A DNA stretch of 37,701 nucleotides from positions 1-37,701 of the forward strand of contig JACZQZ010000011.1 of the NCBI GenBank assembly GCA_022545455.1, given 5' to 3'. Each line of letters begins with the position of its first letter. The first letter of the stretch is position 1. Under the pieces are notes generated by a model. It had not been told where the DNA came from. It searched no databases and saw only the letters and a list, made by a program, of their open reading frames with translations. Source of the stretch: Pseudomonadota bacterium (lineage in GTDB: Bacteria; Pseudomonadota; Alphaproteobacteria; Rhodospirillales; 2-02-FULL-58-16). This document shows positions 27,876 to 32,626 of this stretch, one piece after another. A program made the position numbers and the translations under genes.

Positions 27876-29063
27876 CTATTTTGCGTTGCTGGCCTTGTTT
27901 CCTTTCGATTCCACGCTTCGGGATTCGCCCGCCTTAAGGCCTATCACGTTGAAGACGGGGACGGGCTTGAGAAACCCCTTGAGGGTAAGCTCGCCTAATG
28001 GTTCGCTCTCCGCAATGTCCTCGATCTCCGCGCAAATGCGCTGGGTAACGAGGATTTGCCCGTTTTCGGCCTGGTCGCACAGGCGAGACGCAAGGTTCAG
28101 CGAGGACCCAATGGCGGCGTATTGGAACCGCCCTTCGAAGCCGATCTGTCCGAGCGTCGCGTACCCTAAGGCGATGCCGATTCCAAAGCCGAGTTCGTGA
28201 CCTCGCTTACGCCACTGATCGATCTGCGCACCGACATCTTCGCGCATGGCGACCGCCATCCGGGTAGCGCGCGCCGCCGGGTCCGCGCAAGGCAATGGAT
28301 CGTTCAGGAACGCCAACAAACCGTCCCCGGCGAAATGCTCGAGGGTGGCGTCGAATCGGAAGATCAGTTGCCCCACCGCTGCGTGGTACTCGCGCAGGAC
28401 ATTCATCACTTCCTCGGGTTCAGCGGTATCCGAGAACGCGGTAAACCCTCGAAGGTCGCAAAAAACTGCGGTGATTTCCTGCCGGTGCCCCTCCATGAGG
28501 CTCTGCTCATCGGAGGAAATGATCAGATCAGCAACCTGTGGCGAGAAAAATCGCTTCAAATGGCCCACGCGTTCCAGTTCGTGAAGCTGCTCGGCGACCT
28601 TTTCTTCGAGCTTCTGGTTCCACTCCGAAAGCTGAACGGCCTGGGCTTCGAGACGCGCGGCTTGCTCTTGGCCCGTATCGTGCAGGCCCTTGATGCGCAG
28701 CATCGACTTGACCCTCGCGACGAGCGCGGTCTGGTCCACCGGCTTCGCCAGGTACTCATCGGCACCCGCCTCCAGGCCGGCGACCACGTCCTTCGGATCC
28801 GCCTTGGCCGTGACCATGATGATCGGCATGAAGGGCAGCGACGGGTCGCTTTTGAGACGCCGACAGACCTCGATGCCGTTCAATTTGGGCATCATGATGT
28901 CGAGCAGGATCAGGTCGGGCCGCTTCTCCCTGGCGACGGCCAGCGCCTCTTCGCCATCACTCGCCGTCAGGATTTCATAGCCTTGGGCGGCGAGGCGGGT
29001 CTGGAAGATATCCAGGTTCTGGGGGTTGTCGTCGACGATGAGGATTTGCGGCGGTGTCCTCAC
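27876..29063 (-). CDS. Response regulator receiver domain fused to class III adenylate/guanylate cyclase domain
   Basis: ILIVDDNPQNLDIFQ...LILLDIMMPKLNG...MVTAKADP...LAKPVD receiver; coiled coil; TAVFCDLRGFTAFSD...EHFAGDGLLAF...YAAIGSSLNLASRL cyclase. Confidence 0.92.
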   Translation of the reverse strand: MRTPPQILIVDDNPQNLDIFQTRLAAQGYEILTASDGEEALAVAREKRPDLILLDIMMPKLNGIEVCRRLKSDPSLPFMPIIMVTAKADPKDVVAGLEAGADEYLAKPVDQTALVARVKSMLRIKGLHDTGQEQAARLEAQAVQLSEWNQKLEEKVAEQLHELERVGHLKRFFSPQVADLIISSDEQSLMEGHRQEITAVFCDLRGFTAFSDTAEPEEVMNVLREYHAAVGQLIFRFDATLEHFAGDGLLAFLNDPLPCADPAARATRMAVAMREDVGAQIDQWRKRGHELGFGIGIALGYATLGQIGFEGRFQYAAIGSSLNLASRLCDQAENGQILVTQRICAEIEDIAESEPLGELTLKGFLKPVPVFNVIGLKAGESRSVESKGNKASNAK

Positions 29064-29066
29064 AAC

Positions 29067-29450
29067 CTACTCCTCGGGCGGCGCCTCCGGCACGAATTCG
29101 CGGACCATTGCCAAAAGCTCGCGCGGTCTGAAGGGCTTGGCGAGGTAGGCGTCGCAGCCGGCCTCCTTCGCCTTGACGTCGTCGCCACTGAGCGCATAGG
29201 AGGTCACGGCGATGATCGGGATATGGCGCAGCGCGGGCTTGGCCTTGATTAAGCGCGTCGCCTCGTATCCGTCGATGCCGGGGAGTTGTATGTCCATGAG
29301 GATCAGGTCCGGACGCTCTGACTCCGCCATGGCCACGCCCGCGTCGCCGGTGACCGCCTCGATCACCTCAAAGCCGGCGGCGCTCAGCGTGTCGTTCATG
29401 ATCCGCCGGTTATCCTCATGATCCTCGATGACCAGAATGCGCTTGCTCAT
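29067..29450 (-). CDS. Single-domain response regulator
   Basis: [32 protein letters not shown]...[22 protein letters not shown]...[27 protein letters not shown]. Confidence 0.93.
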
Positions 29451-30991
29451 GTTGCCTCCTTTGCCTCCTCCACCCGAACCGGCACCGTGAAGGAGAAGGT
29501 CGAGCCCTTGCCCGGGCGTGATTCGACCCAGAGCCGCCCCCCGTGCATTTCGACCAAATGCTTTGCGATCGCGAGGCCGAGGCCCGTTCCGCCCTTCTCC
29601 CGTGTGCTGGACGCGTCGGCTTGTTGGAACTCTTCCATGATCTTCTGCTGATCGGCTTCAGAAATTCCCAAGCCCGTGTCGGTGACGGAAACGAGGAACT
29701 CGCTGTTTGACGCACGTACCTGCAGCGAGACCTCGCCCTCATCGGTGAACTTGATCGCGTTGCCCACGAGGTTCAGGAGCACTTGAGTGAGTCGCTGTTC
29801 GTCGCCCTTGCCGATAGGAAGATCGGGAGGCACCGCAGCCTTCAGCGCCAGTTTCTTCTCCATCGCCAAGGCCTCGACAGCGGTAATGACGGTGGTGACG
29901 ACCTCCTTCATGGAGTAGTCGGCAAGCGAAAGAGTGAGGGCCCCCGCCTCGATCTTGGAGAGATCCAGAACGTCGTTGATCAGGCCGAGAAGATGGCGCC
30001 CGTTGTACTCCACCCGTTCGAGAACCTCGCGGCTCTTTTCGGGCACCTCGCCGTACATGTTGTCCAGGATCAGCTCCGTATAGCCCAGGATGGCGTTGAG
30101 CGGCGTTCGAAGTTCGTGGCTCATGTTGGCCAGGAAATGGCTCTTGGCTTTGTTGGCTTCCTCGGCGGCGGCACGAGCTTCCTGGGCTTCACCCATGGCG
30201 TGTTCCAGTTCGGCGGTGCGGTCCTCGACCTTTTGTTCCAGGGTCCGGCCGTACTCCTCCAGCTTCTCGTTGCTTTCGCGAAGCTCCTCAAACAACTTCT
30301 TGATCGATTCGCGCATGGCGTTGAGATCCCGTGCCAGGGTTCCGATTTCATCGCGGCCGCTGATTTCGATGGGGGCTTCCAGATCGCCATGAGCAATCGA
30401 TGTTGCCGAGTTTTGGAGCTGCAATAGCGGCCGAGAGATGTATCGGCTTGTGATGGCAACGGAGGTTAACGAAATACCCACAATGATGAGGATCGTTAAG
30501 GCAATGATGCCGGAAATATTCAAAATAAGCTCATCCCTGACACTCTCGCGCGACATTGCGATTCGAATCGCGCCAACCTTGTTTCCCTCGAACAGGATAT
30601 CTGACGTTTTAACGATTAGTGGAGAGGATTGGTCAGGATTTGAAAAATCGGTACCCTGAAAGCTCTCACGCGTTCTCTCGATAATAACCTGATTGGCCCA
30701 CATAACCGTTGCATGAGCAATGGCTTCATCCAAGAATAATGACTCAACAAAATCATCCACAACGTCATCGTCCAGGTTCCAAAGTGCCTTCGGCAAACTC
30801 GTCCTGGAAAGATTCAAGGAATAATCCAACCTTCTTTCTAATTCCTTCTCCGTTTCGGTAATATTGATAAATATGGCGACCGCCGCAAAACCAAATAACA
30901 ACAAAGTCACCACGCCGATGAACGCGTAGCTGAAACGGCGGCTGATACTCTGGACCTTCGGAGTCTGTCGTTGTGATGATGCGTCTTCCAT
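29447..30991 (-). CDS. Membrane HAMP sensor histidine kinase
   Basis: Two TM segments flanking a periplasmic region, [22 protein letters not shown]-box, [50 protein letters not shown]. Confidence 0.93.
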
Positions 30992-31009
30992 CGGATTATC
31001 CTTGCTGGC

Positions 31010-32626
31010 CTATTGCGCCAGCCACACGTTGCCGAGGTCCTGGTTGATGTAGTGGCTTGGGCTGATCTTCCATCCGCGCACGATGGAGCGGTGCGGGATG
31101 ATCCGGTACCACCAACTGCCGGTGATGATCTGATGCACCTGTTCGTCCAAGGCTCGTTTCTCGAACTTACGCATGATCCGGCGTTGCTCTTGCGGATCGC
31201 CGGAGCGGTTCATCGCGTCGAATAGCTTGTCCAACTCACGGTCCTGGTAATTGGCGTTGTTGTTACCGGTTTTGTCGTCGGAAATGAACTTGGCGACGAA
31301 GAGCAGCGGGTTCACGACCGCCTGGCAGTTGTAGTCGATGGACACATCGAACTCACCGCTTCGGAGGGTTTTGAAATAGGCGCCTTTTGGCTGCACCCAC
31401 TGCGAAACATTGAGGCCAATGATGCGCCACTGGTTGATCAGATAAGCCCCGATGATCTTATAGGGTTGATCGATGCCGCGGTTGTGTAACTTGAATGTAA
31501 ATCCCGGCGGTACGCCGGCCTCACGCAACAGACGGCGCGCCTCGGCCCGCGACCGTTCGACATTCGGCGAGTAGCCGGCAATTTGCTCCAGCTCCTCCTT
31601 CGTGGCTGCTAGGGGATGGCCCGGAAAGACGACGCCTCCAACCGTCTTTACGACGGCGACTTTGGAAAGGTACTGCGCGCCGCCCCAGCGGTCGATGGCG
31701 AGTGTGAGCGCGCGGCGTACCCGGGGATCGTCGAAGGGCTTCACCTTATGGTTGGGAACGACCAGCAGATAGCAGGCCCAGTCGCTTTCCTGAACGGTAA
31801 TCTTGTCCCCAAGGGCGCGTTTCAGGAGATCGCGGCTCCGCGGCGGGAAGCCCCGAAACTCGATTAAAGCCTTTCCCGTGCGGATGGCATCCACGCGCGA
31901 CGATTGGTCCTTGATGGCCAAGGCCCGGAAGCCGTCCAGATAGGGCTTGCCCTTGAGATAATAATCGGGATTGCGGACGCCCTCGATGAAGGCGCCGGGC
32001 TTCCGTTGCTTGAACTTGAACGGGCCCGAGCCCATGACATTCTTCTCGTACCAGTGCATGTCCTCATCGAGGATCTTCTTGCTGTAAATAAGGTTATAGG
32101 GGTTCGCCAACGCGGGGATGAAGGCGCCCGAGGGGTACTTCAACTCCAAGACCACCGTGTAGTCGTCGGGCGCATAAACCTTCTTCACCATGGAGAAGTG
32201 TGCTTTGCGCGAGCTGATCACCCCCTTCGGCGGGAAGATGATCTTGTTGTAGCTCGCCACGACGTCGTGCGCGGTGAGCGGCGAGCCATCGTGGAACTTG
32301 ACGTGCCTGCGAATCTTGAATGTGTACTTTTTCCCACCGTCCGTCGGTTTGGGTACCGTGATGCACAAATCGCACACGAAGTCGGTCGTGGAGGAGGCAT
32401 TATCCGGGTTTACCCGGATCAGCACGCTATAAAAAGGCGCGATCCGTTGAAGCATCGCAAAGGTCCATTCGCGGTGCGCGTCGAAGCTGGGGGCCCCGCC
32501 CGCCACTACGAAAGTCAGGATGCCGCCGCGCCTGGGCGTCTCCTGGGCGAGCGCACCAACCGCTACAACCGTCAGCATGCACGCTGCCGCCAGGGTGACT
32601 GAAGTTCGATGTCTGATGCCAGGCAT
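31010..32626 (-). CDS. Family 5 (DppA/OppA-like) extracellular solute-binding protein
   Basis: Signal peptide TSVTLAAACMLTVVAVGALAQETPRRGGILTFV; FKIRRHVKFHDGSPLTAHDVVASYNKI; DDPRVRRALTLAIDR. Confidence 0.9.
   Translation of the reverse strand: MPGIRHRTSVTLAAACMLTVVAVGALAQETPRRGGILTFVVAGGAPSFDAHREWTFAMLQRIAPFYSVLIRVNPDNASSTTDFVCDLCITVPKPTDGGKKYTFKIRRHVKFHDGSPLTAHDVVASYNKIIFPPKGVISSRKAHFSMVKKVYAPDDYTVVLELKYPSGAFIPALANPYNLIYSKKILDEDMHWYEKNVMGSGPFKFKQRKPGAFIEGVRNPDYYLKGKPYLDGFRALAIKDQSSRVDAIRTGKALIEFRGFPPRSRDLLKRALGDKITVQESDWACYLLVVPNHKVKPFDDPRVRRALTLAIDRWGGAQYLSKVAVVKTVGGVVFPGHPLAATKEELEQIAGYSPNVERSRAEARRLLREAGVPPGFTFKLHNRGIDQPYKIIGAYLINQWRIIGLNVSQWVQPKGAYFKTLRSGEFDVSIDYNCQAVVNPLLFVAKFISDDKTGNNNANYQDRELDKLFDAMNRSGDPQEQRRIMRKFEKRALDEQVHQIITGSWWYRIIPHRSIVRGWKISPSHYINQDLGNVWLAQ

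Follow-up and report, generated by a model that had tools for sequence, protein, structure and literature searches.

A periplasmic binding protein acting on a sensor kinase is a principle already known from AioXSR, TorT and CBP-ChiS, and a receiver ahead of a class III cyclase is found in CyaC of cyanobacteria, a hybrid kinase-receiver-cyclase protein. Here we describe a transporter-less four-gene operon located on the minus strand, at positions 27876 to 32626, of a 37,701-nucleotide stretch of contig JACZQZ010000011.1 (hereinafter referred to as the window), from the draft genome of an alphaproteobacterium (GCA_022545455.1; 2.76 Mb in 191 contigs). The operon encodes a solute-binding protein (SBP), a membrane histidine kinase, a stand-alone receiver and a receiver-class III nucleotidyl cyclase, and it probably represents a binding-protein-gated kinase-cyclase signalling operon into which a former importer protein was recruited.

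Among described systems, AioXSR and ArxXSR sense arsenic oxyanions, and in these systems the SBP, once it carries its ligand, is believed to act on the kinase (PMC5908839). As in the window, a periplasmic SBP originating from a transporter family, PhnD-like in their case, is encoded in one cluster with a sensor kinase and a response regulator but with no transporter genes (PMC5908839). AioXSR/ArxXSR differ from the window in their SBP family and in their output, a transcriptional regulator that works at an RpoN promoter taking the place of the cyclase, and they contain a single SBP. Chitin sensing by CBP-ChiS in Vibrio likewise relies on an SBP that acts on a membrane-bound histidine kinase (PMC7564644), but the kinase and the output are different and no receiver-cyclase is present. 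TorT-TorS, LuxP-LuxQ and ChvE-VirA also use a periplasmic binding protein as a kinase co-receptor, as is proposed here, but with other SBP folds, hybrid kinases and no cyclase output (in part, PMC5908839). The importers of the Dpp/Opp type have SBPs of the same family as the window (SBP_bac_5), whereas permease and ATPase genes are absent from the window operon. The receiver preceding a class III cyclase is common to the window and CyaC, but in the window the kinase is a separate protein, an extra stand-alone receiver is encoded, and the base-selecting Lys of the cyclase is replaced. The literature searched, which left most subscription papers outside, yielded no description of receiver-cyclase coupling, SBP arrays or SBP-family swapping.

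Gene organization and predicted proteins

As described in an earlier note on this DNA, the four genes are co-directional and in an operon-like arrangement; the SBP gene (31010-32626) is separated by 18 bp from the kinase gene (29447-30991), which the gene of the stand-alone receiver (29067-29450) overlaps by 4 bp at its start. All four frames are intact. The third gap, given there as 16 bp, was corrected to 3 bp, because a GTG codon at 29063 matches the start of every homologue in the alignment; the cyclase gene accordingly spans 27876 to 29063.

The SBP (538 amino acids, aa) was assigned to Pfam SBP_bac_5 with 213.9 bits and possessed an N-terminal hydrophobic stretch (residues 9-27), a signal peptide. 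The kinase (514 aa) contained HAMP, HisKA (77 bits) and HATPase_c (111.7 bits) domains, with the phospho-acceptor His292 in the H-box HELRTPLN. Two transmembrane-like segments identified in a transmembrane scan (24-42 and 155-173) enclose about 110 aa, indicative of a periplasmic domain. The stand-alone receiver (127 aa; Pfam Response_reg) was DivK-like and retained the acceptor Asp53.

The cyclase (395 aa) was composed of Response_reg and Guanylate_cyc domains. Residues Asp55, Thr85 and Lys107 of its receiver, as well as the metal-binding Asp203 and Asp247, the transition-state Asn323 and Arg327 of its catalytic domain, were kept in all of 47 homologues. The base-selecting Lys was replaced by His243 in the window and by Arg in 43 of the 47 homologues, and the second base-selecting position was Ala316 in the window and Thr in 34 of them (base-selecting and catalytic positions were assigned by motif). 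The cyclase is likely to be enzymatically active, judging from its sequence; since the canonical adenine-selecting residues are absent, its product, cyclic AMP or cyclic GMP, is not predictable from sequence.

The earlier statement that no permease or ATPase is encoded nearby held for 9 kb around the operon in a scan with hidden Markov models (HMMs), but not beyond, as a full Yej-like importer, distinct from the operon, is encoded at a distance of about 12 kb (15217-19376, minus strand). Its genes specify an SBP_bac_5 protein (17490-19376) and, after it, two permeases of the BPD_transp_1 type.

Conservation of the module and its association with orphan binding proteins

A class sample of 385 genomes yielded homologues of the kinase-receiver-cyclase module. 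Of the 76 genomes in the order that includes genome G396, 30 carried them, as did 9 of 43 in the order that includes genome G470, some of the latter being cyclase-only matches, and the module was also found on Sinorhizobium and Microvirga plasmids. It recurs at 53-63% identity on rhizobial plasmids and in other alphaproteobacterial orders, the concatenated proteins of the nearest modules being about 60-63% identical to those of the window. The kinase core was about 58-64% identical to the kinases of other module loci, and the stand-alone receiver was 66-73% identical to the module receivers in most loci. The order of kinase, receiver (commonly with a 4-bp overlap) and receiver-cyclase was kept. 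The synteny on which the earlier proposal depended is conserved across orders for these three genes, but the four-gene order with a family-5 SBP was found nowhere else.

The module loci were fetched with their flanks and scanned by HMMs built from seeds that were mostly Pfam-checked, and a locus was regarded as evaluable if the kinase was present with enough flank on both sides (n = 33, window included). An orphan SBP gene on the same strand was identified in the operon at 28 of the 33 loci, immediately before the kinase (26) and/or immediately after the cyclase (9); at none of the 28 did that stretch contain a permease or ATPase gene on this strand. The SBPs belonged to three families, and their genes often overlapped the kinase gene by 4 bp. 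In the order of G396 they were PF04392 proteins, whose genes often stood in tandem, as many as six in a row and joined by 4-bp overlaps, and in Sinorhizobium and Microvirga they were NMT1-type proteins with a SCO-family gene in between. SBP_bac_5 occurred with the module in the window only, so that the same SBP family was not conserved with the kinase. At L133, L136, L139, L144 and L149, three to six different PF04392 SBPs stand in tandem before one kinase, mostly linked by 4-bp overlaps. The module kinase at L162 (1701-7874, plus strand) is 2057 aa long, carries about eight GAF domains in addition to dCache, and has no SBP beside it.

PF04392 genes are scarce, each of 15 genomes examined for them having 0-15 copies, and the adjacency of these SBPs to the module is therefore very unlikely to be due to chance, even if loci from a single order do not count as independent. 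As a control within the window's own genome, an SBP gene was found within 1.5 kb at none of 14 other HisKA loci, the window locus being the only one of the 15, and at none of 15 cyclase loci; the window SBP, more than 1.5 kb away from the cyclase domain of its operon, falls outside the cyclase count.

Origin of the solute-binding protein

Homologues of the window SBP were present in 14 of 60 relatives, and three further close ones were obtained from genome contigs. Nearly all of the relatives' loci long enough to read had the gene order ATPases-SBP-DppB-DppC, the permeases numbering one or two (importer genes were called by reading the sequences of open reading frames, and HMMs were then built on them). 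Neither a kinase nor a cyclase was found beside the SBP in the homologue loci of the relatives, and conserved synteny between a dpp-type SBP and a kinase was rejected on these loci. The closest importer SBPs were 55-69% identical to the window SBP, and a paralogue in its own genome (58% identity; C129:35386-36969) was located inside a Dpp-type importer operon. The window SBP groups with Dpp-type importer operons that contain permeases, an outcome that the earlier note had itself set against its proposal.

Phylogenetically, the window SBP was sister to the importer SBP of genome G007 (support 0.94), with a branch length of 0.33 vs 0.13 for this importer-bound sister. At 201 columns invariant in other importers, the window SBP differed at 31 and the G007 SBP at 11. 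The kinship with importers, the longer branch and the lost invariant positions together point to a former importer subunit that changed after leaving the importer. Solved relatives of family 5 include, by name, binders of nickel, haem, opines and oligosaccharides too, and a peptide is therefore only one candidate ligand; the window SBP also matched, weakly, the sequence of a chitin-oligosaccharide-binding protein (1zty). At L145, L147 and L153, and in part at L142, a full Dpp-type importer operon (SBP5, two permeases and two ATPases) is convergent to the module, downstream of the receiver-cyclase, and such importers are a possible source of the recruited family-5 SBP.

The SBP could instead serve as a second binding subunit of the C129 Dpp-type importer, its place before the kinase being incidental or reflecting co-regulation only. 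That a full importer with a similar SBP is encoded in the same genome and that the close relatives are all importer SBPs is consistent with this explanation, and extra SBPs sharing one permease are well known. It nevertheless appears unlikely in view of the mere 18 bp to the kinase gene, whose module is in most cases accompanied by orphan SBPs, the 31 lost importer positions, and the branch exceeding that of the importer-bound sister.

Sensor domain of the kinase and kinase-less short forms

The window kinase lacks both dCache and GAF and has its own periplasmic domain instead, and its sensor half is unrelated to the dCache of other module kinases. No match to the sensor domain was found in a search of plasmids. 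Relatives of the sensor half (24-33% identity) were HAMP-SpoIIE proteins and other kinases; SBP_bac_3 genes were clustered with them at three of six loci (L179, L180 and L182), and a weak SBP_bac_3 match was located just upstream at L183. Both halves of the kinase thus have kin beside orphan SBPs, the core in the module and the sensor with SBP_bac_3. At L180 and L182, the SBP_bac_3 gene is clustered with genes for a HAMP-SpoIIE phosphatase and for small proteins that, by eye, look SiaB/SiaC-like.

On plasmids of Rhizobium ruizarguesonis and R. leguminosarum, dCache-HAMP-cyclases related to the window cyclase domain are encoded directly after a PF04392 SBP gene. Such two-gene units were located on plasmids of the R. 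leguminosarum group at L185:4881-7662, L208:1957-4756 and L209:1957-4750, and two PF04392 genes precede the cyclase at L086. These pairs represent a kinase-less short form of the system. In Terrarubrum (L190:5818-9512, plus strand), a PF04392-type SBP gene overlaps that of a dCache-HAMP hybrid kinase by 4 bp; this pair adjoins a Dpp importer, with no receiver-cyclase.

These observations bear on a second alternative, in which the kinase senses by its own periplasmic domain and drives the cyclase, with the SBP as a target of the pathway or an accessory but not its input. The domain of about 110 aa would allow this, and L158 and L162 possess the same kinase-receiver-cyclase output with no SBP. 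We consider this improbable, because at many loci the SBP gene, which usually comes first, is closely linked to that of the kinase, and direct pairs of SBP and HAMP-cyclase exist with no kinase between them.

Probable acquisition of the module

Apart from one cyclase-domain match, the module was absent from 120 relatives (cyclase E 1e-50, sensor E 1e-15), and the possibility that it is a trait of the window's own family was rejected on this absence at those thresholds. The GC content at third codon positions (GC3) of the operon was 0.67-0.86 (kinase, 0.67; SBP, 0.78), vs about 0.91-0.93 for most flanking genes. Given the absence from relatives and the lowered GC3, the module was probably acquired. 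An assembly or recombination accident, joining a lineage-own SBP gene to a horizontally acquired module with no functional unit resulting, would fit the low GC3 of the kinase and the presence of the SBP family in several relatives that lack the module, but is very improbable given four intact and tightly spaced frames, an SBP GC3 that is lowered too, and an SBP-first order that is the usual one for the module.

Proposed signalling mechanism

In the binding-protein-gated signalling operon that we favour, the SBP, formerly a subunit of a Dpp-type importer, would have been recruited from the lineage's own stock. After secretion it would bind a small molecule in the periplasm, which may be a peptide, an opine, a metal complex or an oligosaccharide, and the ligand-bearing SBP would dock on the kinase at its periplasmic domain. 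Autophosphorylation of the kinase at His292 would follow, and the phosphate would be passed to the stand-alone receiver (Asp53), the cyclase receiver (Asp55), or both; the stand-alone receiver may act as a shuttle, a phosphate sink or a competitor. Phosphorylation of the cyclase receiver would alter the cyclase-domain dimer and shift the cyclic-nucleotide level. The co-receptor pathway envisaged in the earlier note gains from the conservation of the module, usually with transporter-less SBPs, and loses in that this SBP is itself of an importer family and its gene order was found nowhere else.

Several points weigh against this mechanism. A family-5 SBP in this operon was found at no other locus, and the pairing of SBP and kinase in the window thus rests on the 18-bp proximity and on analogy. 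Most of the 28 SBP-bearing loci come from one order and are not independent, and five of the 33 evaluable loci (L082, L146, L155, L158 and L162) have no same-strand SBP; opposite-strand PF04392 genes are located nearby at two of these five. Most module kinases carry a dCache sensor and GAF domains and could sense ligands with no SBP. AlphaFold gave no usable model of the kinase (predicted local distance difference test, 42), and the contig may be chimeric, as the draft assembly consists of 191 contigs.

Neighbouring genes

A gene encoding a PilZ domain was located just upstream of the operon (33366-33644, minus strand); its GC3 is 0.34, against about 0.9 for the contig, and it looks foreign in origin. 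PilZ domains frequently bind cyclic di-GMP. About 800 bp downstream of the cyclase, an FGE-sulfatase/PvdO-like protein is encoded (26198-27067, minus strand), whose top NCBIfam match was PvdO (222 bits, under the 500-bit cut-off).

Implications for orphan binding proteins

Beyond the window, the loci may belong to a widespread and undescribed alphaproteobacterial receptor class, a proposal for and against which we hold the case to be evenly balanced. In such a class, interchangeable orphan SBPs (PF04392, NMT1 or SBP_bac_5), one or several, would feed one kinase and then the cyclase via the receiver pair, and new specificities would arise by recruitment of SBPs from importers or by tandem duplication, with the short form coupling an SBP directly to a dCache-HAMP-cyclase.

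Orphan SBPs are abundant in soil- and plant-associated alphaproteobacteria, where they are mostly annotated as 'ABC transporter substrate-binding protein' with no transporter. If the signalling function holds, the window would provide an importer subunit that became a receptor and whose importer-bound sister is at hand for comparison, and the sharing of one kinase by several SBPs would become a testable question. Many orphan SBPs would then be receptors and not transport parts, and the operon would link each of them to a named kinase and to an output that can be measured as a second messenger.

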